A stretch of 64,000 bases of DNA from a virus. Below the pieces are notes generated by a model. That model saw only the letters and a program-made list of their open reading frames with translations. It did not search any database and was not told the origin of the DNA. The translations under genes were made by a program, and so were the position numbers. The DNA lies in the IMG/VR virus record IMGVR_UViG_3300025853_000068, positions 1 through 64,000 of that record; one strand, 5' to 3'. Shown here piece after piece: positions 1-64,000 of this stretch (the first letter of the stretch is position 1; each line of letters starts with the position of its first letter).

Positions 1-3000
1 AAACAACGGTCCTTCAACACCGCCTCTAACATTTATAAAGTCATCGAAGTTAAAGTCATAACCTTGCTGCATCAACTCAGGGCCTTTTAACGGCCAGTCA
101 CCTGAGCTTATTTTTATTTCATTACCAGTAGCGGGGTCTGTAGCTATTATAAAGTTGTCGCCGTGCATGATAAGTGTTTCGTCAAAATCAAAAGCAGACA
201 TACCTCTAGATGTAGTTTCTTTAGACCACATACCTGATCTAACTCCTTCGCCTAGTCTTTGCATGTCGTTAAATGAAGGTGTGTTTTCTGGCCTAAGGGC
301 TTTAACAACATCTATAAAATTTTGACCAACTTCTAGTGGCGCGTCTGGATCTATACTCATCAACGGCGCTAAGTCAGCTATCTGTTGATCTGTAGCATTT
401 TTAGCTAACCAAATAGCGGTGTCTTCATTTAAAACTCTTTCTTGACCATCAGGTCTAGTAGTAAATTTGTGACCTGTATTGTCTATAGCTTTATCCATTA
501 TCTTTGGAATAATATCTACAGTATAACCGTCAAACACAGCCATATCTAGCGTGTTGTTCTGCATGTATGACTGTATTATTTTGCCAGCTACTTCTTCTTT
601 AGGTATAGCGTGCTCGTATTGAAACTCTTTACCTAGCTGATCAAGCCCAAGCTTACTGCTGAGCTTTTGAAAGTTCTTAGGTATTCTAGATAGATAAGCA
701 GCTCTTCTTAATGGCGCATCCATAGACGATCCTAATGACATCACTAGCAAACCAAAATCAGCCGCATCAAAGCTATCGTCTGATTGAACTCTAGCCCAAG
801 CGTCGTCTAATAATCTTTTTACTTCTTGTCTGGCTTCTAAAGATTTTTGTTTTCTTGTTCTAAATATATCAGCTAAGCTTTTGCTTTTTAACGAAGTAAA
901 AAATCCTTTTGTAGATTCGGCAGGCATTTCAACAACTAGTCTAACACTAGAGCCATCAGGCTTATTTAACATGTATGTGCCTTGCTTTGGAGATGTAACT
1001 TCAAACCCAGGTAAAAGACCTTGGTTTACTAACGCTAAAAAATCTGCTTTACCAGTTGTAACTTGTTGTCTGTTTTCTCTAGCTATTTTTTTACCTTTTT
1101 TATCTAGCTTAAAGTCACCAATGTTTTTACCTTTAGGTAGTTTGTCTCCCTTCTTATATCGCTTCCACTTGCCACCGTTTTCTCCTTCCCAGTTTGGTGT
1201 ATCAATTATTTCACCGCCAGCTTTTGTAACCGTTTTACTACCGTCACCTATTTTAGAAGCACCAGCATACATAGGCATTAGTTGACTAATAACTCTTGTA
1301 GCAGCTTCTTCAGGACTTGTTTCTTCGGCTAGCTTAGCTGTAGTGTTAACTAAATGAGATCTTTGTTTATTAATACCTTCAGTTTCCTTAGCTCTGTTAC
1401 CAGGATTTACGGGTTTTCCGTTTTCATCTTTAGGCATTATATCCATTAAGTTTTTCTTAATGCCTTTGTTGAAGTTGTTATTAAAGAACGCATCAATAAA
1501 AAAGTCTTTAACATCTTTACCTGTGAACTCAGCAAAATTACCAAGGTCTTTTAGACTTTCGTTTACTGTATTAAAATCTTTTACAAGAGATTTAACTTCG
1601 TTTTTTATAGAGTTAATAGTTCTACTTGGAAGCGTAGACTCCGAGTATACATTGTTAAAAACGTTATCGATGCTAGCGTCACTCATGTCTGTTGTTGGTA
1701 GCATTGCAAATACTTGTTCTATCCTATCGTTTCTACCTTCAGCAGAGTCTTTGTTAAAAGCCATTAAACCTTTACCGTCGCCTAGTCTAGCTCTTGCTGC
1801 GTCTGAAAAAGTTCCTTCTGATAAAGATTTTATTCTTAATTGTTGATTAGCTTCTAGCTGAGCCATTTGAACTATAAAAGCTCTAATAGCACCATCGCCG
1901 CTAGTTCCGCCCCTGTCAGATCCATCAGAGTTCATGTTGAATAAAGCTAAAAACTCTTCTTTAGCTATGTCAGTTCTCTTGTCTTGAGCTTTCTTTTGGC
2001 CTAACTTTTTAGAGGCACCCTCTGCTACTTTAAGTCTAGCGCCTTCAGCATATAAATCTCCAAGCTTAGTATTAGCAGCTCCAGTAGCCTCACCACTTCT
2101 AGTTTGACCTTCTGCTAGTATACCTATCAAACCTTGATTTAAGTTGCCATTAGCATCTATAGCTCTATCAAATATTTCTAGTTGAGCTTGTTTTCTTTGC
2201 TTAGCGTTTAAGTCTTGGTTGGCTAGTATTCTCTTTGCATCAACACCAAAGTGTTTTGCTACAGCATCTAACACACCATACAGAGGGCCCGTTGGTGTAA
2301 CGTCAGATTCCTTTGTGGGATTAAATAATTTTGGATTACCTTTTTTATCTAATACTAGCTCGCCTGTTTTCTTGTCTACTCTTGTTATTTTCTTAGCGCT
2401 GTTTAAAAACTGCTTTACACCTTTGTAAGTTAAGTTTTCTATTGATACGTCAGCGTCATCTAAGGCTTTGTCTATCGCGTTATTAGTTGTTTCGTTAAAC
2501 TCGAATACCTCTCTAGCTTTTAACTCGTTTACAACCTCTCTAACTGCTTCTTTTCTACCAATAGATAGATCCTGCTCGTCTAGTTGTTCTAGCAAAGAAT
2601 CTCTTTCACCTTGCATTAAGTCGCTAACAGTAGATCCACTGTCGCCAACCTCTCTGTCTAGTGATGTAGTGTCGGCTTGTTGCTCTGCTTTGTACTGATT
2701 TATTACGTCACCTTTAGCCCTGTATATAATCGACATACCAGCACCGCCAGATACGCCTGTTAACCAACCAAACAAACTATTATTTTTGTCTAGGTTGAAG
2801 TTTGTTAAAAATCTTCTACCTAACTCTTCTTTTACTTTTCTAGTAAACTCACGTAAAGCTTCAGGCGGTAGGCCTCTTTTCGTCATGTCATTTTGAACCA
2901 AAGCGTCTAAAGCTCTACCTTCTACTATAGCAAAGTAAGCGTCTGTGTAATCAGGAGTAGCTGCAAAAGCGTCTTGACTTACGTGTTTAGGGCTGCCATC

Positions 3001-6000
3001 TTCGTTCTGTACAAACTTATCAAATGTCTGCTTCAAGTCTGGATCACTCTTAATGTTGGCATCTAAAGACTTAGAGTAAGCTCTTTCAGCTCTAGCTTCT
3101 TCTTGTTGCTGTGGTGTTTTTGCTTGCTCAACAATTAGTCCACCAGCTCCTTTAGCCATCATTCTAGTAATAGCAGCGTTAGGCTTATTGTTCTTTATAG
3201 AAGTATGCATATCCTTCATAAAGTTTCTAACGTCTTGACTCGTGTCAAGCTGTATATCTCTGCCTAAATAATTCTGTGCAAACTGTCTAAAAAAATCTTT
3301 AAGCTTTTGTAGCGTAGAGTCGTTAAACTCTATATCTCCATCAGCTAACATCTCAGAGGCTATAGTTATTATTTCCTCTCCTCTTCTATCAGCCTTGTAT
3401 CCAGCTATCCTTTTGTTAAACAACGCGTCTTTTCCAGGTTTGAACTTAATTCCATCGCCGCTCAACATGTCTATAACCCTGTCGCCTAAAGCAGTTCTAA
3501 TACTTGGGTCGTTTTTCATAGTGTTATACAGTACAGCGTGCACAAACTCGTGGGCTTGTGTGTTAAACTTACCGTTTTCACCAATAGCTTCTGGGTTTAA
3601 TTCTATTTGAAAGCCTGTTAGCTTTCTGTCTTTGCCTTCGCCAGTAAACGTAGGTATCATACCTCCATAAACCTTAGTGTTGTTTAGCATTTCTAAAGCG
3701 GCTTCACCTTGCCTTTGGCCTTCCTTAGCTTGCTGTAAAACTTCTTTAGCTTCAGCTACGTCCTTAGGTGAAGAGTTAGGATCATTTATTATATCGTTAG
3801 CCGCTTCTTTAAGCCCGTCTTGAAACATAGAAAACTCTTCTACAGACTGCATGCCTTGCCCAAACTCATCTTGAGAAAGATTTTCTTGCATTTCCTTATT
3901 ACTAACCTCTTTAACAGAAATATTTAAAGGACTTCCTAGCTTTTTAAGCTGGGCATTTGTTTTATCTATTAAAAGCTGTTGTTGCTTTTGGTGCTTTTTA
4001 ACATCAGAAGGAGGATACTTATTTATTATCTCTTGTCTAGATTTTTCGTTTTTCTTATATCTTTCGTTAAGTCTATCAAGATCTCTTTGTTTAACATCGT
4101 CTGGCGTAGTTTTATCGTTTACTATCCTGTTATATTCTGCCTGTAGTTTAGAGTTATTTTTATTTAGCTTTAACAGTTGAGACTTTTCAGAGTCGCTAAG
4201 CATATCAACTCTGTTAGCATCTATCTCTATAAGCTCTTTATTTTTATGTAGTATATCGCCCACCTCAGACTGTAAGTCCGCTACCTCTTCTTTAGATAAA
4301 CTGTTTTTACCTTCGTGTAGCTGTCTTTTTATTTCTTGTAGTCTTTGGTTGTTAGCTGCCATAGCATCGCTAGCAGAAACAGATTTAAAAGGAGCCATCA
4401 TGTGCTTGAATAACACCGGCGATTTAATGCTACCAGATATAGCTACACCAGAGACGAAAGACTCTGCAACATCATCATATATAGTTACGCCTTCTTTGCC
4501 AGAAGCCATATCAAATAAGTTACCGCTTATAGTGGCAAGACTTTCAGATCCACCTTCTTCAATAAAGTCTTTACCTGTAGCTAGTAGAGATCTTTTGTTA
4601 AACACGTTTTGTCTAAGGTATCTAGACGCGCCTTCAATACCAGCTTCTCTGGCCGTTGCGACAGTTCCTCTAAGCGCTCCTTTTACATATTTAATTTGGC
4701 CAAACGTAACTCTTTCTGATAATCCTTCAGCCGTACCACTAAGCATTGAATTTGTCCACATGTTCCAAAAACCGTAGTCTGTTCCTTCAGCGCCGTCTGT
4801 GTCTTTGTAAAGAGATCGCTCTTGCTCTAGTTGATCAAACTTTTGTCCAGCAGCAGAGCCTCCCATCATTACTAAACCAGCTGTACCTCCAGTTAAAGCC
4901 ATAGCTGTAAGCTGAGGTAGCTGACCACCTAGCATTGTCACAAACCACTCACCTGCGTCTGAAGAGTTTTGTATATCTCCAAAAGCTACTGGATCTTGAA
5001 CTTTTTGTCTAAAGTTAGTTTGCCACTCTGATAAAACTTTTTTACCTTGTTCTCTAGCTGTTGGTGTTACTGGGTCGTTGTCCCAGTCTATACTGTCTGG
5101 AGAAGTTATTAATTTTCCAGCATTAATAAATGTTTTTATATATGGGTCAGTTATTATACCTTCTTCAATAGCCCAGTCAGATATTTCTCCAAATGGATTA
5201 ACCATGTAAGCAACTTGATTTAAACCTTTTATCATATCTACAGCACCCATGAAAGCAGCGTTACCTGCTTGCGTTCCAAGCTGATGGTTTTTTTCAATAA
5301 GAGTGGAGTACATATCAAGCTGACCTTGGTCTAAGTTAATATCTTGCATTTGCCTATACGCTGAGCTCATAGCTTCTGATATATTTTTATTATCAGATAT
5401 GTATGTATTATATTTATCTACATTACTTTGGTACTCATCTTTTAGTTTTTGTATTTCAGCATTTGCAGCTTCAACCTCTTCTTCTGTTTTATATTCTTTG
5501 CTTTGTATTTCTTCTATTTTTTTTCTAATAGGAGCTGGATCAATTTTACCTCTTAAAGCTTCAGCGTCTTTTATACTATTAGAAAAAGCTTCGTTAAGCT
5601 TATCTATTCTTGAAACAACTTCTTGCTCTTCTTTGCTTAATGTTGCTAGATGGTTATCTGTTTGATCTTCAAATAATTTTTGAGTTTCAGCTTTTCTAAA
5701 CCAACCACCGCCAAGATCTTCTATGTTTTGACTAATGTTTTTATTTTGTGTTTGTCGATTTTTTTGAGCTGTTAATATTGAATTAGCTACTTCATTTACT
5801 TCTTCATCATCACTACCTATGTTATTGTATATGTCTTTTAAATTAACCACTTCTCCATTAGGCGCAGTGCCTTTTTGAAAGTCTTTATTTATAAAGTCAA
5901 GGCTATGGTTAGCATTTAAAAACTTATTTAAGTCTTCTCCTTTAAACCCCATAGCTTCAGCATACAACTTCTTAGCCTTATTAATTCTAGCGGAAGAGCT

Positions 6001-7182
6001 TGCAGAACCAACTTGCCCTCTTTCTAGTTCATCAAGCTTTTTTCTTAGCGCTTCTGGTGATTTTTCTGCAAGAGCTTTGTTAGCCATTTTTTGAATAATA
6101 GATTTAGCCAAAGGATCTTGCATCTTTTTATCTATTATATCAGCTCTATATCCGCTTAGTGATTGTCTATATTCAGCTTCTGCTTTTTTGTACGCTTCTT
6201 CTTTATCCTCTTCAGAAACAACATATTCTTGAGACTCTAAAATCTCAACTTGTTTTTTTAAATCCGTATATTCTTTTGTTTCTTGAGATGACTTTTGTTT
6301 ATTTTGTGATTTTTGAGCGTTAGTCACACGCGTAGTTTCTGCGTTACCTTCTGCAGCTGTGTTACCTCCTCTAGTAGCGTGTTTTTTCATAAACTCGTCA
6401 ACTTCACTCGCAACTCTCTCGTCTTTACTGCCCACCCAACTATCTACGTCAAAGGTTAAGCTAGCTCCATTCAAAGCTGTAACAGTTATTGAATCAGTGG
6501 TGCTACTTGGATTACTAAAGCTAAAACCGTATTCAGAGTAATCTGCTACAAATCTATCTAAACCTGATTCTCCAAAACCAAAAAACCAACCACCGTCGTC
6601 TGTACCTATTAAATCTTTTGTGACCGTAGGCATTTCGTTTTTAGCCCACTCATTGTCTCTAACTCTTTTTTCTTCAAGAATTTTAGACATGTCATCATCA
6701 ACCTTTTGAGGTTCTCCACTTTCACTAGGTACAGTCCAACCTAGTTTGTGGTCGTATTGATAACCTTCTGGATCTATTATAGACTCGTTGTTTTCTGTTC
6801 TAGTCTTATTTAACTCTTGTATTTTTGCTAAATGAGGATTTTGTTTTTCAAACTCAGCTTGCTGATCTAGTATAGCTTGAGTTTCTTCATCTACGTTCGA
6901 CGCCGAAGAAGTATCGTCCGAAGTGGATGCCGTACCGTCTTCCGTCACAGTGGCATCCGCCTGTGTCTCGGCTTTTTTTGGTGCATACTCTGGAAAAAGC
7001 TCTGGAAAAGCTTTGTTAACTTTTTCGTAATCAAACTTGTTATTAACAGCGGTAGTTACATAGTCTTGTATAACTCCTGTGTCAACACCTTCTAGCTCTG
7101 GAAATGCAGCTAAAACTTTATCGTAATCGTAGTCGTTAGCTACAGATGTTGTAACTAAATCTTTTAGTATTTGTTGATCCAT
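1..7182 (-). CDS. Giant polyvalent virion/ejection protein, N-terminal 2394 residues (partial)
   Basis: The reading frame is open from the ATG at 7182 to the left edge, so the C-terminus lies outside. Seen: an acidic, charged N-terminus; long Lys/Glu/Gln-rich, probably coiled-coil stretches; a Gly/Ala-rich hydrophobic segment near residues 770-800; a zinc-protease motif HEFVH at residues 1211-1215; and a HAD-type motif DFDETL starting at residue 2332, close to the edge. Giant proteins that combine a protease, a HAD-like domain and low-complexity linkers follow the ejection proteins in many podovirus-like marine phages and are thought to enter the host with the DNA (family knowledge). It starts 1 nt from its upstream neighbour and closes the late operon. 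The frame at 62228-64000 is probably the end of the same gene. Catalysis by either domain is inferred from motifs only. Confidence 0.85.
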   Translation of the reverse strand, partial: MDQQILKDLVTTSVANDYDYDKVLAAFPELEGVDTGVIQDYVTTAVNNKFDYEKVNKAFPELFPEYAPKKAETQADATVTEDGTASTSDDTSSASNVDEETQAILDQQAEFEKQNPHLAKIQELNKTRTENNESIIDPEGYQYDHKLGWTVPSESGEPQKVDDDMSKILEEKRVRDNEWAKNEMPTVTKDLIGTDDGGWFFGFGESGLDRFVADYSEYGFSFSNPSSTTDSITVTALNGASLTFDVDSWVGSKDERVASEVDEFMKKHATRGGNTAAEGNAETTRVTNAQKSQNKQKSSQETKEYTDLKKQVEILESQEYVVSEEDKEEAYKKAEAEYRQSLSGYRADIIDKKMQDPLAKSIIQKMANKALAEKSPEALRKKLDELERGQVGSASSSARINKAKKLYAEAMGFKGEDLNKFLNANHSLDFINKDFQKGTAPNGEVVNLKDIYNNIGSDDEEVNEVANSILTAQKNRQTQNKNISQNIEDLGGGWFRKAETQKLFEDQTDNHLATLSKEEQEVVSRIDKLNEAFSNSIKDAEALRGKIDPAPIRKKIEEIQSKEYKTEEEVEAANAEIQKLKDEYQSNVDKYNTYISDNKNISEAMSSAYRQMQDINLDQGQLDMYSTLIEKNHQLGTQAGNAAFMGAVDMIKGLNQVAYMVNPFGEISDWAIEEGIITDPYIKTFINAGKLITSPDSIDWDNDPVTPTAREQGKKVLSEWQTNFRQKVQDPVAFGDIQNSSDAGEWFVTMLGGQLPQLTAMALTGGTAGLVMMGGSAAGQKFDQLEQERSLYKDTDGAEGTDYGFWNMWTNSMLSGTAEGLSERVTFGQIKYVKGALRGTVATAREAGIEGASRYLRQNVFNKRSLLATGKDFIEEGGSESLATISGNLFDMASGKEGVTIYDDVAESFVSGVAISGSIKSPVLFKHMMAPFKSVSASDAMAANNQRLQEIKRQLHEGKNSLSKEEVADLQSEVGDILHKNKELIEIDANRVDMLSDSEKSQLLKLNKNNSKLQAEYNRIVNDKTTPDDVKQRDLDRLNERYKKNEKSRQEIINKYPPSDVKKHQKQQQLLIDKTNAQLKKLGSPLNISVKEVSNKEMQENLSQDEFGQGMQSVEEFSMFQDGLKEAANDIINDPNSSPKDVAEAKEVLQQAKEGQRQGEAALEMLNNTKVYGGMIPTFTGEGKDRKLTGFQIELNPEAIGENGKFNTQAHEFVHAVLYNTMKNDPSIRTALGDRVIDMLSGDGIKFKPGKDALFNKRIAGYKADRRGEEIITIASEMLADGDIEFNDSTLQKLKDFFRQFAQNYLGRDIQLDTSQDVRNFMKDMHTSIKNNKPNAAITRMMAKGAGGLIVEQAKTPQQQEEARAERAYSKSLDANIKSDPDLKQTFDKFVQNEDGSPKHVSQDAFAATPDYTDAYFAIVEGRALDALVQNDMTKRGLPPEALREFTRKVKEELGRRFLTNFNLDKNNSLFGWLTGVSGGAGMSIIYRAKGDVINQYKAEQQADTTSLDREVGDSGSTVSDLMQGERDSLLEQLDEQDLSIGRKEAVREVVNELKAREVFEFNETTNNAIDKALDDADVSIENLTYKGVKQFLNSAKKITRVDKKTGELVLDKKGNPKLFNPTKESDVTPTGPLYGVLDAVAKHFGVDAKRILANQDLNAKQRKQAQLEIFDRAIDANGNLNQGLIGILAEGQTRSGEATGAANTKLGDLYAEGARLKVAEGASKKLGQKKAQDKRTDIAKEEFLALFNMNSDGSDRGGTSGDGAIRAFIVQMAQLEANQQLRIKSLSEGTFSDAARARLGDGKGLMAFNKDSAEGRNDRIEQVFAMLPTTDMSDASIDNVFNNVYSESTLPSRTINSIKNEVKSLVKDFNTVNESLKDLGNFAEFTGKDVKDFFIDAFFNNNFNKGIKKNLMDIMPKDENGKPVNPGNRAKETEGINKQRSHLVNTTAKLAEETSPEEAATRVISQLMPMYAGASKIGDGSKTVTKAGGEIIDTPNWEGENGGKWKRYKKGDKLPKGKNIGDFKLDKKGKKIARENRQQVTTGKADFLALVNQGLLPGFEVTSPKQGTYMLNKPDGSSVRLVVEMPAESTKGFFTSLKSKSLADIFRTRKQKSLEARQEVKRLLDDAWARVQSDDSFDAADFGLLVMSLGSSMDAPLRRAAYLSRIPKNFQKLSSKLGLDQLGKEFQYEHAIPKEEVAGKIIQSYMQNNTLDMAVFDGYTVDIIPKIMDKAIDNTGHKFTTRPDGQERVLNEDTAIWLAKNATDQQIADLAPLMSIDPDAPLEVGQNFIDVVKALRPENTPSFNDMQRLGEGVRSGMWSKETTSRGMSAFDFDETLIMHGDNFIIATDPATGNEIKISSGDWPLKGPELMQQGYDFNFDDFINVRGGVEGPLF

Positions 7183-7183
7183 A

Positions 7184-8374
7184 TTATGATTTTGCTAGTC
7201 TGTTACTTCCTCCTGCCTTAGTAGAGCCTTTCATGTTTGCAGCTCTTCCTTCAAGGCCAGCTGTTTCTAAAGTTGTTGTTTCTCTTGCGTCAGAGTACTT
7301 TTTATCTTGTTGAGCTACAAATCTAAAAAAGTAGTTCTCTAATACAGATCTACCTATGTTTTCATCTTCTTGTATTTTCTTTAACATAAACTCTTTGTCT
7401 TCTGGAGATATATTGTCGTACCAGTTTGTTTCACCTTCATCAGGGCTTATGTTAAATTCATTTAACTCTTCTGGGCTTAGCAGCTCTTGATACGTTAAGT
7501 TGTCTATTTCACTAGATATATCTTCCATTACACTTCTGCCAGTGCTATCAAGCTTGTCTGCAAACAAAGATTTAAAATCTTTTGTATTTAAGTTGTTGCT
7601 TATTTGTCTTTTAACATCTGCTTCATCAAAAAATCCTCCAGAACCTGCGTTATCTTTTACAGCTTTAGCCATATTGCCTATAGCTAAATCAAACTCTGAA
7701 GCTTTAGGTACAGTCATTTCTTCTAGTTCAGCTCTTGTACCAGTAAACACATCAGGCGGTCCAGCAGAACCCGCCGGCGGTGGTATTTCTATTGTGTATA
7801 CTTTTTCGCCTTTTTCATTTGTAGATATTTGAGACTCTCCAGCATAAAACTTTTCTAACAACGAAACTGTTCTTTGATCAGTAGCACTACTTACCGTTGA
7901 TTTATTTTTTCGGGGATCCATGCTAAAATCTTTTAACCCAGTAGCAGATTCAACGTCGCTAGCTGTTTGCGTTTTTATATCTGCAATATACATATTAAAC
8001 TCACGCGTCAAGTCAGCGCGCTCTTTGTCATCTGTAGATTCTAATATCTGATTTCTAAGATCTTGAAGCTTGTCATAGCCAAAGTTATATTCATTGGTGT
8101 TAGAACCAGCGCTAATAAAGTCGTCTAGCTTAGTCTGAAGATTACCTTCTAACCTGTCTTGTTCTGCTTTCTGCTCTTTCTCTAAAGCTTCTTTTTCTTT
8201 AGCAGCCTCTTCTATCATCTCAGTTCCTTTGTCAACAGCTACTTGCCCTAACGTTTCACCAAGACCTTTAGTCTTAAACTGACCAACTCCAGCGGCCGCT
8301 TGTGAAGCTCTGCTTAATCTATTGAGTTCGTTTGCACCTAATCCTAAATTTATACTTGCTCTTTTCTCTGCCAT
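7184..8374 (-). CDS. Probable internal virion (ejection) protein, 396 aa
   Basis: A hydrophilic, helix-rich protein with an Ala/Glu/Lys coiled-coil segment at about residues 45-80 and no signal peptide or membrane segment. It sits between a short Ala-rich protein and the giant protein, the order small-medium-very large typical of ejection-protein cassettes (T7 gp14-gp15-gp16, P22 gp7-gp20-gp16). The role is inferred from position, size and composition; I see no conserved enzymatic motif. The C-terminus is Gly/Ser/Lys-rich. The start is the first ATG and leaves an 11-nt gap to the upstream gene. Confidence 0.6.
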   Translation of the reverse strand: MAEKRASINLGLGANELNRLSRASQAAAGVGQFKTKGLGETLGQVAVDKGTEMIEEAAKEKEALEKEQKAEQDRLEGNLQTKLDDFISAGSNTNEYNFGYDKLQDLRNQILESTDDKERADLTREFNMYIADIKTQTASDVESATGLKDFSMDPRKNKSTVSSATDQRTVSLLEKFYAGESQISTNEKGEKVYTIEIPPPAGSAGPPDVFTGTRAELEEMTVPKASEFDLAIGNMAKAVKDNAGSGGFFDEADVKRQISNNLNTKDFKSLFADKLDSTGRSVMEDISSEIDNLTYQELLSPEELNEFNISPDEGETNWYDNISPEDKEFMLKKIQEDENIGRSVLENYFFRFVAQQDKKYSDARETTTLETAGLEGRAANMKGSTKAGGSNRLAKS

Positions 8375-31127: not shown

Positions 31128-31385
31128 TTAATCTACTAATACAATATCACTTGACTTTATAACAAAATAAAACTTACCGTCATATTCTATTACATGGCCA
31201 GCGTGTCTATCATACCACACCACATCCTCTTGTTTAATTACTTCTACTAGATTACCTATAGAAATAACTCTACCTTTGAAGTATCTGATCTCTTCGTCTC
31301 TAACTTCATCAAGTATAAGCCCACCTTTTGTTACAGGCTTTTCTTTTATACGATCTACTACTACGTAATGATTAACTGCTTTCAT
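31128..31385 (-). CDS. groS: Phage co-chaperonin GroES-like, 85 aa
   Basis: A single Cpn10-like domain, shorter than host GroES (about 97 aa). Seen: a first strand with Val-Val-Val-Asp-Arg, a mobile-loop region ending in the Gly-Gly-Leu-Ile-Leu tip that would contact GroEL, a strand with GRVISIGN, then VVWYDRHAG and a closing strand ending in VLVD. GroES caps the GroEL cavity during ATP-dependent folding. It is downstream of and overlaps groEL by 14 nt, the reverse of the usual bacterial groES-groEL order. The likely clients are phage structural proteins. Confidence 0.8.
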   Translation of the reverse strand: MKAVNHYVVVDRIKEKPVTKGGLILDEVRDEEIRYFKGRVISIGNLVEVIKQEDVVWYDRHAGHVIEYDGKFYFVIKSSDIVLVD

Positions 31386-32940
31386 TTACTCGTACGTTTG
31401 AGATTACACAATCAGCAGAGATAATAGTAGATACTACGCTCACCGCGTTTTTTAAAGCAGATTTAGTTACAAGCACTGGATCTATGATACCAGATTTAAC
31501 CATGTTAATACGTTCACTAGTTATAGCGTCTCTTCCATAACCTTCATGATCTACAGACTCTTTGTCTATAAATATACCAGCGTTAGCTAATATAGTATCA
31601 AAAGGAGCTCTAATAGCTTTGAGTAGTAATTCTTCACCGACATCGTCGGTCGAAATTTTTTGAGATGCATTAAGGAGGGCAACGCCGCCCCCTGGTACTA
31701 TACCTTCTTTCAACGCAGCCTTTGTAGCATAAATCGCATCCTCGACCCTGTCTTTCTTTTCTTTAAGCTCAACTTTAGAGTTTGCCCCAACGCGGATAAT
31801 TCCAACACTACCCGATAGCATAGACAATCTTTGTTCCAGCTTCTTTTTAATGAAACTATTTTTCTCATCTGCGATTTGTTTGTTTACTTGATCGATGCGT
31901 TCACCTATAGCTTCTACATCAACATCTAACGTTATAACAGTATTCTTATCATCTGTTTCTGCATAGTCAGCTTCACCAAGATGATCTGATGACATCATTT
32001 CTAAATCATCACCTAGCTCTTCGTTAAATAGAGTAGCACCTGTCATTATGGCTAGATCTTGACAAGTGTCGTTTCTAGTAGGGCCAAATCCTGGTAAGTC
32101 AATAATATTTACTTTAATATTACCTTTTACTTTGTTCATCAATAAAGATGATTTAACTTGTTGAGATACTGGCGCTACTATTAATAGTGATCTGTTCTGC
32201 TTGATAACATGCTCTAGTATATTCTGTATCTTACGCATGTTAGGTATCTCAGACGTGCATATCAACACTAGAGGATTATCTAACTCTGCTTTCTGCTTGT
32301 CAGTATTAGTAACAAAGTGTGGAGATGTTAGTGCGCAATCAAATTGTATACCATCTACAGTGTCTACGTAAGTTTCATCTGTGCCAGAACCTTCCATAAG
32401 CACAACACCGTCTTTACCTACAGACGTATAAGCTTCTGCTATAATCGTTCCAAGCTTTTTATCGTTGTTACAACTGATAGTAGCTACGTTGTTAAGCATG
32501 TCAGAGTCTACTTCTATTTTGATGGAGTCTAAATATTTCATGACTTTGTCTAGACCAGACTGCATACCTTGCTTTATTTCTCTAATTGTAGCTTTGTCCA
32601 TAGAGTTATAGACATGTGTAAGTATTGATTCTGCTAAAACAGTGGCGGTAGTCGTACCATCACCCGCTTCACGCACTGTATTGCTAGCAGCTTCTTTAAT
32701 AAGCGTAGCTCCGATGTTTTCTACAGGGTCAAATAACACTACTGACTGCGCCACAGTAACGCCATCTTTAGTAATTACCGGGTTACCTCGCGAATCTTCG
32801 TAAATTACGCACTTACCAGACGCACCGAGTGTAGATTTTACTGCTTTTGCTAGTTTGTTTACGCCAGAAATGACGCGATTTTTAGCCTCATCGCCAAAAT
32901 TAAGGTCTTTGACGATCTCGCTAGGGAGATTGTATTCCAT
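31372..32940 (-). CDS. groL: Phage-encoded chaperonin GroEL, 522 aa
   Basis: A full-length type I chaperonin. Seen: TKDGVTVAQ near residue 57; the ATP-site motif GDGTTTATV with Asp94; and [13 protein letters not shown] with Asp401 (equivalent to the catalytic Asp398 of the E. coli protein), followed by VPGGGVALL. The C-terminus ends in a Val-Arg-Val-Asn-Glu-Ser-Ser style sequence and lacks the Gly-Gly-Met tail of host GroEL, which alters cavity volume. Phage GroEL homologues are known and fold phage capsid proteins. It lies in the late region, with groES overlapping its 3' end. The TTAAATTAAATTA leader precedes its ATG. Host-derived transfer is possible but the sequence is already diverged. 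Confidence 0.95.
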
Positions 32941-58603: not shown

Positions 58604-60568
58604 TTAGTTTTTAATTATTCTTTTATTAATTATTAAGTTGTTGTGTTTAATTATAATAGTATATATGCCAGGGGTTAGTTTCGTAACATCTAAGGCATTT
58701 ATATTTTGTTTTTGTATAAGTATATCCCCCAGCATATTAATCACTGTAAGATCAACTTTTTTACTTACGTATATATAATCACTTGTAGGGTTGGGATATG
58801 TAACTAGATCATTTCTAAATTCAATTAAGTCTGTAGGGCCTGTCCAACCATCAACACAATACTGATATAAGCTAACACAGCCTTGATCCCACTCTTGATC
58901 GCAGCAATACTCATCTACTTCTATAACCCAAGCAAAGCAATCATTAGGTAAAGTATAGACATCACCAATAGCGCAACCAGCAGAGTATTCACACGATGAG
59001 TCAGGTACATTAACAAGCGGATCGTAGTTAATAGCAGTCGGGTCATTGCAGCCATAAATAGCATAAACACATGAGCCGTTATCAGTATTAGCATCATCGT
59101 CGTAATTGAGTGCGGTACTGTCCATGCATCCATAATAAAAAGGTATACAACTACCATTGTCTGTATTTGCATTAGGGTCATAGTTAAACATCGTAGCGTC
59201 CATGCAACCATAGAATACTTCTATACAACTACCATCGTCTGTGTTTGCTAGCGGATCGTAATTAAACGCTGTTACATCTGTACAGCCGTAAGCATAATAA
59301 ATGCAAGAGTTATCGCTTACGTTTGCCAACGAGTCGTAGTTCATAGCTGTAATATCCATACAGCCCTCTATAATAGCTACGCAAGTGTCAGGCGTATTAG
59401 CTAGTGGGTTGTAATTAAAAGCAAACTCGTTCATACAACCCAACACTGTAGGTATACAAGATCCTGCTAGCTCTACATTTGCGGTTGAGTCAAAGTTGAA
59501 AGCTGTACTATCCATACAACCTAACACAACTAAAGTATTACAGCTACCATCATCATAATCAGCGCTAGCATTATATTCTAAGTATATAGGATTCGTGCAG
59601 CCTGTTACATAGTAGCAGGTATTATCGTCAGTGTTAGCTACGGCATTGTAATTTAAAGCTGAAACGTCAGTACAACCATAAACTCTATCGATACAACTAT
59701 TACCACAGTAAGGCACGCCAACCACGTTAACAAAAGGAACTAGTGGGCTAGCAAATCCTCCTGGTGCATTAATAGCCACGTGCTCATCAGAATATAAACT
59801 ATAACCGCATTGCACTGACGTAAATTGTGACTGTTGTGTTATATTAAATTTTACTTGCACAGGCTCTGCTACGCTTAACTCAAATGTAAACGTAGTGTCA
59901 AAGCCATTATCAAGAGTAAATATACCTAAAAAGTTGTTGCCTTGAAACACCTGTAGATATGCTCCAGCCCAACCGTTGCCAGCTAAGTCTGTAAGCTCTA
60001 ATGTATGCGTACAACTATCTATTAGTATATCTGTGTTAGCTGAGTCTACGTAATTATAAGCAAGCGAATCTGTACAGCCAAATAATTTCTCTGTGAAACA
60101 CATCCCTGTGTCTACAGTTGCTATTGGCAAGAACTCTACAAAGCTATTATCCATGCAACCGTATATAGGCGGTGGCGGAGCGCAGTCATCTACTGTAAAC
60201 CCATGGTAAGCAACAAAACCAAAGTTAGCCGAGTCTATTTCAACTATAGTATCATTACATCTTACTAAGTAGTACGAGCCATCTTGCCCACCCCATAGGC
60301 TACCTTGCATGCCATCTCCATAGGTATCACTTATTACAAATTCGTAGTCACCATTAGGTACACAAAGCTGAGTTACTTGTGGAGAGTAATCTATAATGTT
60401 ATCGTAAGGACCGCCAGTTACAACAGTATCTAAGTTGTAGTCCAATATAGCCCATGAAGTTTCTTCTGGATACTGATCTGGATTTATAACGATGTTTAGA
60501 TATGTTCCGTTAGGACATTGCGCAAGCGCTATGTTAATGCAAAATAATAGTGTAATTAAATACTTCAT
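58604..60568 (-). CDS. Secreted GCTD-repeat protein with T9SS type A C-terminal domain, 654 aa
   Basis: Layout: N-terminal signal peptide (MKYLITLLFCINIALAQ); a beta domain; then about eleven Cys repeats with a consensus of Gly-Cys-(Thr/Met)-Asp...Asn-Tyr-Asp...Asp-Gly-Ser-Cys from about residue 135 to 525; a Cys-rich segment; and a C-terminal domain of about 70 residues with a Tyr-Pro-Asn-Pro-Thr start (TYPNPTSDYIYVSKK), VINMLGDILIQKQ, GIYTIIIK and KRIIKN. The last is the T9SS type A sorting signature, known in Bacteroidota for cell-surface or secreted cargo (established). A phage protein using the host T9SS is striking; it could shield or remodel the host surface. Role is inferred. Confidence 0.85.
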   Translation of the reverse strand: MKYLITLLFCINIALAQCPNGTYLNIVINPDQYPEETSWAILDYNLDTVVTGGPYDNIIDYSPQVTQLCVPNGDYEFVISDTYGDGMQGSLWGGQDGSYYLVRCNDTIVEIDSANFGFVAYHGFTVDDCAPPPPIYGCMDNSFVEFLPIATVDTGMCFTEKLFGCTDSLAYNYVDSANTDILIDSCTHTLELTDLAGNGWAGAYLQVFQGNNFLGIFTLDNGFDTTFTFELSVAEPVQVKFNITQQSQFTSVQCGYSLYSDEHVAINAPGGFASPLVPFVNVVGVPYCGNSCIDRVYGCTDVSALNYNAVANTDDNTCYYVTGCTNPIYLEYNASADYDDGSCNTLVVLGCMDSTAFNFDSTANVELAGSCIPTVLGCMNEFAFNYNPLANTPDTCVAIIEGCMDITAMNYDSLANVSDNSCIYYAYGCTDVTAFNYDPLANTDDGSCIEVFYGCMDATMFNYDPNANTDNGSCIPFYYGCMDSTALNYDDDANTDNGSCVYAIYGCNDPTAINYDPLVNVPDSSCEYSAGCAIGDVYTLPNDCFAWVIEVDEYCCDQEWDQGCVSLYQYCVDGWTGPTDLIEFRNDLVTYPNPTSDYIYVSKKVDLTVINMLGDILIQKQNINALDVTKLTPGIYTIIIKHNNLIINKRIIKN

Positions 60569-60909
60569 TAAAATTTACTTATTATAAGTTCATCAATATA
60601 TTCCTGTATCTCTTCTCTTGTAGCAACCATTTTAAAACTAAGATCAGCTTGAAAACGTTTTACTTCTTCGCCTTCGTCAAACACAATGATAGTAGGTACA
60701 ATAGCAATAGCGTATTTTTTTTGTGTATCAGCGTTGTCAATACTTAGGCTTTTTTTGCCAGCGTCTGACAGCTTGTTAAACCATTCAACATCGTTAGCTT
60801 CGTTCCAGCCAGCGTTGAAGTGTATTACTTTAACTTGACTATAGGTTACGCCAATAGTAAAAGCGATTATAATTATAAGCGCGTATAAAAATTTAGTAAA
60901 CTTATTCAT
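60568..60909 (-). CDS. Thioredoxin-fold membrane/secreted protein lacking CxxC, 113 aa
   Basis: N-terminal membrane/signal segment (FLYALIIIIAFTIGVTYSQ), then a thioredoxin-like order: VKVIHFNAGWNEANDV (where CxxC would lie), AIAIVPTIIVFDEGEEVKRF with the cis-Pro-Thr, and a final helix. The catalytic Cys pair is missing, so it is not a standard oxidoreductase; likely a binding or scaffolding fold, perhaps on the envelope side. It overlaps the T9SS gene by 1 nt. Confidence 0.6.
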   Translation of the reverse strand: MNKFTKFLYALIIIIAFTIGVTYSQVKVIHFNAGWNEANDVEWFNKLSDAGKKSLSIDNADTQKKYAIAIVPTIIVFDEGEEVKRFQADLSFKMVATREEIQEYIDELIISKF

Positions 60910-61187
60910 TACTTATAAAGCTTATCTTCTATTTTCTCAAGAGTTTTTTTAATTTCTGTAACGTCTTCTTGAGTGTTCATGATAGTGTTACGTATCATTT
61001 CGTCTTTCATTTGAAACTCCATGCGCGTAACCTCTGGCGGTATTGGTGCTGGTAGCTCCTTCGCTTCAGCTATATCTGCTTGCAAAGTGAACCACATGCC
61101 TGTACCCATCACGAGCACAACGCCTAACGATATTATTGTTTCTAAACTTAATTTTACTTTTGTTTCTTTACCTATTTCAGTTGCCAT
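60909..61187 (-). CDS. Single-pass membrane coiled-coil protein, possible spanin-like, 92 aa
   Basis: A hydrophobic segment (ETIISLGVVLVMGTGMWFTL, about residues 17-37) after a basic N-terminus, then a Pro-rich turn and a C-terminal coiled coil. This looks like an inner-membrane anchored protein with a soluble helix (an i-spanin-like plan) or a small holin-related protein. It lies next to envelope genes. Role inferred. Confidence 0.5.
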   Translation of the reverse strand: MATEIGKETKVKLSLETIISLGVVLVMGTGMWFTLQADIAEAKELPAPIPPEVTRMEFQMKDEMIRNTIMNTQEDVTEIKKTLEKIEDKLYK

Positions 61188-61190
61188 ACT

Positions 61191-62246
61191 CTAGAATATT
61201 ACATAGTTGATACCGCACTTAAAATCGTACCACTCACGATTCCAGTACTTGTTATATTTACCTTCAACAAACATACCTAAATGTTTAGTTATTTTAGCGC
61301 CTACGATTAAACCACCTGAATAATCATACCACTGTTCACCGTCATTAAAGTTGTGATATGAAAACTCATTGCCATCGTCGTAGTGGTAAGGCATTAGGTT
61401 ACCCCAGCCGTGTAGCCAAAAGTTCTTTTTATAATAATAGTAATCAAAGCCAACGACTAGCGAGTGTTGCCACTGATTAGCTAGCTCGTTACGCTTCTTT
61501 TCTACATAATTTTCTAATACCTCAGGTATAACAACTTGTTTCCAAACATCAGCGCTAGTTGCTACTATGTTACCATCAGGATCTTTATATTCGTTCTCGT
61601 ATACATCTACTGAATAACCTTCTTCAATAGCTAAGCACGTGTAATGCAAGTAGTTGTTTTCAAGCTGCCACTGTTCTAGTGGATCAAAGCCGTATGGTTC
61701 AGCAAGTCTTTGAACAGCTCCGATGTTAAACGATAGCTTTTTATTACCGTTTAATCTTAATCGCTGCGTGCTTTCAAAATACTCTATGTCTGCAAAGCCA
61801 TCTTTAATATATTCCACCTTAGCAAGCCACTTTGGCTTTACATATCTTACAAAATGATGTTGATCTAGATATTCTACACCTTCTTGTCTTTTATAGTTTG
61901 CTTGAAATAAATATTCAAACGGTGATAGACCTACACTAGCAGCGTCACCATAGGCAGATTCTGTGCCATCTTTAAACTTAGTTATATCTTCATAACCAAA
62001 TCTTTTAATTTTACGTATACCCATAACTAATGAGTAATCAAACGGAGTAAATACCGTATCGTATAACACAGATCCATCTTTTACAGAATATATATCTCTA
62101 TCTGCTAAAGATGTGTTACCGTTCGCTGCTATGTAAAACGTAGAGAACTTAAATGTTTTCTTTAACACTTGTGAGCAACACTTTTTAGTCGCCGCACAAG
62201 AGGTTAAAATCAATAATAATATAATTGCTAGTCGTGATAATAACAT
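61191..62246 (-). CDS. Phage outer-membrane beta-barrel-like lipoprotein, 351 aa
   Basis: N-terminal export signal with a lipobox at Leu-Thr-Ser-Cys (about residues 14-17). The mature protein is rich in alternating aromatic/charged strands ending in Phe (Tyr-Val-Ile-Phe), the usual C-terminal signature of outer-membrane barrels. Its tail overlaps the next gene upstream by 19 nt. Phage-encoded outer-membrane proteins can block adsorption of related phages or change receptors (general knowledge). Inferred, no homologue named. Confidence 0.6.
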   Translation of the reverse strand: MLLSRLAIILLLILTSCAATKKCCSQVLKKTFKFSTFYIAANGNTSLADRDIYSVKDGSVLYDTVFTPFDYSLVMGIRKIKRFGYEDITKFKDGTESAYGDAASVGLSPFEYLFQANYKRQEGVEYLDQHHFVRYVKPKWLAKVEYIKDGFADIEYFESTQRLRLNGNKKLSFNIGAVQRLAEPYGFDPLEQWQLENNYLHYTCLAIEEGYSVDVYENEYKDPDGNIVATSADVWKQVVIPEVLENYVEKKRNELANQWQHSLVVGFDYYYYKKNFWLHGWGNLMPYHYDDGNEFSYHNFNDGEQWYDYSGGLIVGAKITKHLGMFVEGKYNKYWNREWYDFKCGINYVIF

Positions 62247-64000
62247 AATCCTGATTTACTTGATGTTTGCATCTTACAGCGCTTGCCGTCAGACTTTACT
62301 TTCTTACATTGTACTTCTTTACCATCACTTCTTTTTTCTACTTTTGTATGTATAGTACAATATGTTCCGTCAACAGGTGTGCCTTTACATCTGCTACCGC
62401 TTTTTGTCGCTGCCGCACATCTAGGTTTTTTGTCTTCTTCTTTTTCGTTTTTCTGATCTTCTAAATACTTTTCCTCCTGCTCTTGTTTTACTTCAGCTTC
62501 TCTTGCTTTGCGCTCTTTCTTTTTTTGATCTCTACTTTCCTGCTTAACTTCCTGCCTAGCCTCTTCAATCTCTTCAGGCCTATCAATACCTAAACCCCAT
62601 TTGTCCCATCCAGCAAACAAAGCTAGCCTCTGCCAGTTAGCGTTGTCGTTATCCATTGCTGCTTTTAGGTTAGACAACTTTCTTTGTATTCTAGCTAGAG
62701 GCACGTTAAACGAGGCTTCAACTAAATTACCCGTTACATCCCATATAGGATTGTCGACATTTGTTAAAGGTATTTTACTGTAAACACCTTTGTTCCACTT
62801 GTCTGTAGTCATAGCTGAATACAACTTTCTAACCTTCGAGCCAAGAGGTGGAGACACATTTAAAGCCTCAACTAAAACTCTACCATTGTCAGCTTGCATG
62901 CCTTTTTCTCTTTCAGACATGTACTTCATTATAGTGTTTTTAACTGTAGACAATACAGCTCCGTATATACCAGATCCTCTAAGCAATGAATCAAGAGTTC
63001 CGTTTGCTATACGCTCTGTCTTAGTATCTAGAAACTCTTCGTCTTCATCGTCGTTCCAAGCTACTGCAAATAACGCGCTTTGCAAACTAGCAAATATAAT
63101 ATTTTGAGCAGCACCGTAGTACAGTATTCTGGATATGTTAGCCTTAGTGTTTCCTCTACCGTTTATTAAATCTAACGCAGCTTTCTTTATCAGTCTGTTA
63201 TACTGCATTGGCGTGTTTTGAAACGCTAGTATTAAACGACCTAACACTGATGCTTGCTCTTGAGATATTTTGTCTGGTCTACTAGACTGCTGAGTAGCCT
63301 CTGCTATTTCTTGAAAGTCAACAAAAGCTTGCTCTTCAGCTTGCTTTTGATTCATACCTTCTTTAACATACTTATTAACTCTATTCCTGTAAAACGTAGA
63401 TCCACCGGCTGATATAGCAAAGCTATCTGCAATTTGAGTAGGTGCAAAACCAAGCTCAAGTAGTCTACCAACCACAGCTCTAACTCCACCTTTTTCCGCT
63501 AGCCTTTGAAGCTCTGAAGCGTTTAAGTCAGACTGTAATCCTCCACGTCTTTGCTTGAGCATTGGAGAGTTGAACAACATTGAAAAATCTTTCCAGTATT
63601 GTTTTTGATTTCCAAAAGCTTTAGCAGCTGCAAATATATTGTTGTCTTCAAAATTTATAAAGTTAACAGTAGATAAAGTTTGTAGCACCGCTGACCTAGC
63701 GTTAAAGAACATAATAGCACCAACAGATCCGTTTAGCCAGTCTAAGAAAGCATTAACTGTTTTGTTTCTTATCGTAGGTCTATTAGTACCAGACTTCATT
63801 CTAGCCAACGTATCTTCAAGAGCACTTCTATATGCAGAGCCGTGAACAGCTTCAAGCTTGTTCAACATTTCTTCTGTAAAGTAGTTGTCAACATTTTCTT
63901 GCCACTCAGCTATATACTCAGCTCGCTTTATTTTAGCAGCGTCAGATATATCACCGTTAAATGAACTACCGTTCCAACCAATTTCTGGCTTTAAATAACC
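62228..64000 (-). CDS. C-terminal 590 residues of the giant polyvalent protein (partial)
   Basis: The reading frame enters from the right edge and ends at 62228. Alternating hydrophobic/charged helical regions (for example VNAFLDWLNGSVGAIMFF and QRRGGLQSDLNASELQ) and Gln/Arg-rich segments resemble the end of the polyvalent protein family seen in marine phages. The last 65 residues hold two zinc-finger-like repeats, C...TKSGSRCK...YCTIH and C...SDGKRCK...LCYYH (DUF5763-like). An upstream helix has a dense Lys/Glu run (about 480-530). It is most simply the end of the gene that starts at 7182; about 2-4 kb would be missing (inference). Confidence 0.75.
   Translation of the reverse strand, partial: GYLKPEIGWNGSSFNGDISDAAKIKRAEYIAEWQENVDNYFTEEMLNKLEAVHGSAYRSALEDTLARMKSGTNRPTIRNKTVNAFLDWLNGSVGAIMFFNARSAVLQTLSTVNFINFEDNNIFAAAKAFGNQKQYWKDFSMLFNSPMLKQRRGGLQSDLNASELQRLAEKGGVRAVVGRLLELGFAPTQIADSFAISAGGSTFYRNRVNKYVKEGMNQKQAEEQAFVDFQEIAEATQQSSRPDKISQEQASVLGRLILAFQNTPMQYNRLIKKAALDLINGRGNTKANISRILYYGAAQNIIFASLQSALFAVAWNDDEDEEFLDTKTERIANGTLDSLLRGSGIYGAVLSTVKNTIMKYMSEREKGMQADNGRVLVEALNVSPPLGSKVRKLYSAMTTDKWNKGVYSKIPLTNVDNPIWDVTGNLVEASFNVPLARIQRKLSNLKAAMDNDNANWQRLALFAGWDKWGLGIDRPEEIEEARQEVKQESRDQKKKERKAREAEVKQEQEEKYLEDQKNEKEEDKKPRCAAATKSGSRCKGTPVDGTYCTIHTKVEKRSDGKEVQCKKVKSDGKRCKMQTSSKSGLCYYHD

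Follow-up and report, generated by a model that had tools for sequence, protein, structure and literature searches.

What use would a phage have for a secretion system of its host? The question is raised by a gene on the minus strand of IMG/VR virus record IMGVR_UViG_3300025853_000068, a record of 66,881 bases of which positions 1-64,000 make up the stretch analysed here (the window). The gene (58604..60568) is an open reading frame (ORF) with an ATG start encoding a protein of 654 aa, for which a first-pass annotation had proposed a signal peptide, about eleven GCTD-type Cys repeats and a type A sorting domain of the type IX secretion system (T9SS), and hence that a phage was sending a protein out through its host. 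Each of these features was borne out by the analyses described below, as was the phage origin of the gene, since the record has matches to terminase, portal, head-module and tail-fibre PHROGs, and encodes a GroEL. The best explanation of the whole, and one that we consider fairly probable, is that this protein (hereafter the cargo) is a late phage protein exported by the T9SS, acting within a four-gene module that remodels the envelope of the infected host. What the sequences themselves show is the sorting tag, the fold predicted for it, its presence in every complete homolog and the linkage of the four genes.

The sorting domain occupies residues 587-654 (58607..58810, minus strand, as are all features of the cargo), as delimited by TIGR04183, PF18962 and the predicted fold. 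The TIGR04183 check suggested by the first-pass annotation gave a match to residues 591-654, the very C-terminus, with an E-value of 2.5e-7 and 30.5 bits against a cut-off of 23, and PF18962 agreed (E 1e-7, 32.5 bits, cut-off 27); the domain was also found in a six-frame search (E 5.2e-10). Because 42 of 55 homologs likewise matched TIGR04183 at E<=0.01, the match is not due to chance. The C-terminal domain (CTD) contains PNP and G-x-Y motifs, as in T9SS type A cargo, and its predicted fold aligned with the CTDs of T9SS substrates from translocon complexes (8glk, 28% identity; 8glj, 32% identity) and with the CTD of RgpB (7pq4, 5ag8), with Z about 8 and a root-mean-square deviation of about 2.2 over 65-68 residues. 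Immunoglobulin (Ig)-like proteins of DUF3244 scored equal to or above the T9SS CTDs in the same comparison, so the fold alone is not specific for T9SS, and the specificity comes from the hidden Markov models (HMMs). With HMM scores above curated cut-offs, the predicted CTD fold, a tag in every intact homolog, and a tag that has been swapped but never lost, there is strong support for the prediction that the cargo is addressed to the T9SS of the host.

The remainder of the cargo has the architecture of an exported, adhesin-like protein. Inspection identified a Sec-type signal peptide, MKYLITLLFCINIALA, at residues 1-16 (60521..60568), and the Q17 that follows the predicted cleavage point is invariant across the 55 aligned homologs; a simple signal-peptide pattern was found in 108 of 116 full-length homologs, the other eight resembling signal peptides or being mis-started. 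Next comes a beta-sandwich 'head' at residues 18-130 (60179..60517), seen in the AlphaFold2 model and conserved among the aligned homologs with NPDQYPEETSW...YGDG motifs, for which fold comparison gave no convincing match; four homologs have an additional MAM domain. The Cys repeats, GC[MTN][DN]..A.NY.....D.GSC, number exactly 11 between residues 137 and 526, with repeats 1-2 at residues 137-186 (60011..60160) and repeats 3-11 at residues 298-526 (58991..59677), and there are 36 Cys in the whole cargo. Between the two sets, the model and fold comparison placed a second beta-sandwich domain (residues 186-290; 59699..60013) that weakly resembles the Ca-dependent carbohydrate-binding module vCBM60, a match (Z 7.0) too weak for a claim of sugar binding. 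A small helical Cys module at residues 530-575 (58844..58981), defined by the invariant columns CFxWVIxVDxYCCxxxWDxxCxxLYxYC of the homolog alignment, is the last shared module ahead of the tag. The AlphaFold2 model, built from 55 homologs (mean predicted local distance difference test score, pLDDT, 80; predicted template modelling score, pTM, 0.34), comprised the two beta-sandwiches, a repeat stalk, the small helical Cys module and, at the C-terminus, an Ig-like domain predicted with good confidence; it does not give the placement of these parts relative to one another.

Relatives of the cargo are encoded at 80 loci of IMG/VR viral contigs. TIGR04183 was matched in 27 of 40 records tested, nearly always by exactly one protein per matching record. 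When homologs were recruited by the body domain alone, and loci fetched by neighbouring genes only, all 85 distinct complete homologs proved to be tagged, 57 by a type A domain and 28 by an alternative tail of ~40 aa. A whole-protein profile retrieved 118 distinct full-length proteins, comprising 85 with type A, 31 with the alternative tail and two with neither; those two are devoid of a signal peptide and are not cargo, so that all 116 real cargos are tagged. Different tags occur on bodies up to 94% identical in the second domain, and identity between type A and alternative-tail homologs collapses directly after the last shared Cys module, i.e., at the domain boundary. A tree of the second domain contained 13 tag changes, at least 10 of them on well-supported branches, and a tree of the neighbouring barrel protein (described below) contained 10, at least six of them well supported; the trees were made by a quick method, and recombination within the body could raise the swap count. 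Tags swapped at least 10 times, between bodies up to 94% identical in the second domain and with the break at a domain boundary, indicate that selection acts on having a tag. An apparent link of signal-peptide class to tail type (raw counts of 22/31 versus 11/85) was absent in independent pairs on the tree and was discarded.

The alternative tail was overlooked by the first-pass annotation. It has the consensus KxLIxIxDxLGRxxKxxxNxxLFYIYxDGTVEKKII and ends 0-6 residues before the stop. A profile made from the phage copies found the tail 10-50 times per genome in several marine Flavobacteriales genomes of 1.3-2.0 Mb, in regions L178-L196 of host metagenome-assembled genomes (MAGs). Among its carriers there are leucine-rich repeat proteins, hydrolases and an arylsulfotransferase that has SprB repeats, and most carriers have a clear signal peptide if their N-terminus is present. 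These genomes each encode 29-58 TIGR04183 proteins and, with the exception of G041, have a match to SprA. The tail was not covered by any NCBIfam model in scans of ten host proteins, nor by any Pfam model in scans of nine host proteins and one phage protein. A profile comparison gave a probability of 4.5% that it is a degenerate type A domain, so that relationship is not shown. Its association with SprA was also uninformative: among 149 genomes sampled from the class to which one Flavobacteriales MAG belongs, all five with the tail have SprA, but so do 143 of the 149. The T9SS sorting types known are A, B and C (PMC10202324), and we propose that the tail may be a further T9SS sorting signal. 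A bolder reading, about as likely as not, is that it is an undescribed class on which one group of marine Flavobacteriales relies for as many as about 50 proteins in a genome, with phages matching the tag of their cargo to that of the host and swapping it by recombination at a change of host.

A conserved four-gene envelope cassette containing the cargo gene had likewise escaped the first-pass annotation. The other members, all on the minus strand, are a 351-aa signal-bearing protein predicted to be an outer-membrane beta-barrel (61191..62246; AlphaFold2 mean pLDDT 77.7), a 92-aa protein with one transmembrane (TM) helix predicted by inspection and a charged helical tail (60909..61187), and an exported 113-aa thioredoxin-fold protein (60568..60909). 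The stop of the one-TM gene overlaps the ATG of the thioredoxin-like gene by one base, as does that of the thioredoxin-like gene with the ATG of the cargo (TAATG). In nearly all loci the cargo is adjoined by the barrel (74 loci), the thioredoxin-like gene (71) and the one-TM gene (66), and, conversely, it was present in 142 of 155 IMG/VR loci fetched with the barrel or thioredoxin-like protein only. Gene order varies, e.g., the cargo comes first in L057, L061, L068 and L091, and the other flanking genes differ while the four stay together; they therefore travel as a unit. The best fold matches of the barrel are outer-membrane protein barrels (OmpG, Z 11.3); its signal is lipobox-like in the window copy and plain in many others, no Pfam family was found for the window protein, and more than 580 matching stretches occur in viral contigs among the matches listed. 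The thioredoxin-like family, with more than 540 such stretches among those listed, has a weak thioredoxin-family match in 37 of 39 homologs and retains the cis-proline motif. In place of CxxC it has NxxN, both Asn being invariant in the 39 homologs, which, judged by the motif, rules out the usual dithiol oxidoreductase activity for the 113-aa protein; that it is a holdase for the Cys-rich cargo is speculation. The same cassette, with a 78% identical cargo, was seen in a 63-kb contig (L090) of a Sphingobacteriales MAG, which is probably phage DNA placed in a bacterial bin.

The setting of the cassette is that of a double-stranded DNA phage, podovirus-like, in which the terminase, portal and head-module genes and GroEL lie in a minus-strand late module and a plus-strand block encodes primase/helicase, ligase, sigma factor, thymidylate synthase, MazG and a B12-type reductase. 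The terminase and the portal each matched 87 phage records. Since the relatives whose host is named all infect Flavobacteriaceae (Flavobacterium, Cellulophaga, Tenacibaculum and, by organism name, Maribacter), the host of the phage is very probably a flavobacterium. Directly upstream of the cassette is the C-terminal part (62228..64000, minus strand) of a 3,261-aa protein encoded across the ends of the record, whose gene also takes in window positions 1-7182 and ends at 62228, immediately ahead of the cassette. A 30-base sequence from the record start was found again at 64832 and the giant gene is open when the ends are joined; a terminal repeat was considered, but an ungapped comparison showed no more than partial identity over the 2,050-base stretch. 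The C-terminus of this giant protein has Cys/His motifs and is DUF5763-like, and its position suggests a virion role. The phage GroEL gene is at window positions 31372-32940, and the related phages MW202828 and Elemovirus elemoA are also annotated with GroEL/GroES.

Put together, these features suggest a route by which the cargo may reach the outside of the cell. It would cross the inner membrane via Sec, and fold and form its disulfides in the periplasm; the SprA translocon of the host would then take it across the outer membrane by its type A CTD. If it behaves like the type A cargo of the host, it would next pass to PorV, lose its CTD and either be released or become attached to polysaccharide at the surface. 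Provided that the tag works, the established T9SS route (PMC10202324, PMC10994853) implies export by Sec, folding in the periplasm, passage through the T9SS and a surface or extracellular location. The part outside the cell would be a stalk of disulfide-bonded repeats bearing two beta-sandwich heads. As the four genes are made from one operon, the barrel, the one-TM protein, the periplasmic redox-dead thioredoxin-fold protein and the cargo may be read as one envelope-remodelling module. We infer the export, surface location and role of the cargo, and an adhesin-like cargo together with a new barrel best fits remodelling of the surface of the infected cell. Among specific roles, blocking the adsorption of competing or sister virions is the leading, though tentative, candidate, adhesion or aggregation of the infected cell is a doubtful one, and help in envelope rupture is unlikely; the nutrient capture that had also been suggested for the cargo found no specific support.

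Several considerations weigh against this reading. That the host of this particular phage has a T9SS is an assumption, and the cultured relatives tested (Elemovirus, phi38:1 and others) do not have any T9SS cargo. While the addressing of the cargo to the T9SS, as the first-pass annotation had it, stands strongly supported, its T9SS-dependent export goes beyond what sequence can establish, and the crossing of the outer membrane is a prediction of that kind. The barrel had no TIGR03519 (PorP/SprF) match at E<=10 anywhere in the record. PorV serves type A cargo, so a barrel that cannot be recognised as PorP/SprF need not be the partner of the cargo. Lastly, no sequence feature favours exclusion over adhesion or lysis.

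Could the cargo instead be part of the virion, i.e., a tail-fibre-like adhesin with Cys repeats, with a C-terminal domain that is only an Ig-like fibre domain? Its gene sits between the giant virion-module protein and the tail fibre, and matches in cultured or named phages were limited to the Cys repeats, in cyanophage S-CAM3 and a marine single-cell phage. In S-CAM3 the GCxD repeat is in a tail-region gene (L088, around 5812-7362), and in related contigs L237 and L229 there are proteins resembling the cargo repeats that have no signal peptide or tag; these suggest that virion parts, too, make use of the repeat. We nevertheless regard a virion role for the cargo as very unlikely, as the signal peptide present in essentially all homologs would take it out of the cytoplasm, the site of virion assembly, and the tag is T9SS type A by HMM, with a consistent fold, and is exchanged with another host tag. 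A joint breach of the outer membrane by the four proteins, beside a DUF5675 protein, would suit the late position, the DUF5675 gene nearby in 43 loci, the helical tail of the one-TM protein and the lipoprotein-like barrel of the window copy. It is unlikely, however, given a cargo architecture that is adhesin-like and not disruptive, a barrel signal that is often plain, a cassette that shifts position relative to the DUF5675 gene, and no spanin or holin family among the family-library matches. A captured passenger gene of the host, bringing its secretion tag with it and serving the host in adhesion or nutrient capture, is suggested by marine Flavobacteriales that encode large secreted proteins sharing these repeats and tags. 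In the phages, however, the family is compact and uniform and stays with its three neighbours throughout these viral contigs, and cellular matches, apart from those in viral-looking contigs, are mostly to the repeats and not to the whole architecture, which makes this origin distinctly improbable.

Of the systems already described, T9SS type A cargo (RgpB, NucA, FspA) is like the phage cargo in its signal peptide, terminal Ig-like domain and PNP/G-x-Y motifs; the phage cargo differs in being encoded in a phage late module, and its export is a prediction from sequence. There is a phage precedent in Cryophage (2020), for which proteins with type A sorting domains were reported and both a hijack of host secretion and superinfection exclusion were proposed (PMC7468147). 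Beyond it, no report of phage-encoded T9SS cargo was found in the literature searched, and among database phage records none of seven tested had a TIGR04183 protein; nor did cultured phages have a relative of the barrel, one-TM or thioredoxin-like protein, or one for a strong CTD query. In Cryophage, the cargos (an endoglucanase, a GH39 enzyme and a PA14 protein) lie in variable islands of that single phage (PMC7468147), whereas the present one, compared by description and not by homology, is a repeat protein with no recognised enzyme domain, in a conserved cassette of many phages. The barrel also has a parallel, as in Flavobacterium johnsoniae barrels encoded beside T9SS cargo serve type B substrates as shuttles or anchors (PMC9143113, PMC12618676). 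As with such type B cargo and PorP/SprF barrels (PMC9143113, PMC12618676, PMC10202324), a predicted outer-membrane barrel gene of the phage cassette adjoins a T9SS cargo gene, at 74 loci; the cassette differs from them in carrying either a type A tag or the alternative tail and in the barrel having no TIGR03519 match. The secreted GCxD proteins of marine Flavobacteriales share the repeat unit and often have a T9SS tail, but are mostly larger, with up to dozens of repeats, and do not have the CCxxxWD module. What is new here is a conserved cargo with no recognised enzyme domain, embedded in a cassette that is conserved among many marine phages, together with the exchange of its tag with an apparently undescribed host tail.

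These phages thus have a protein family whose single constant feature is a secretion address of the host. Exploiting the T9SS of the host is therefore probably not a curiosity of one genome but belongs to the way in which many uncultured marine phages infect. In exchanging tags, these phages have run a natural experiment, and it points to marine Flavobacteriales having a second sorting signal that is as yet unannotated.
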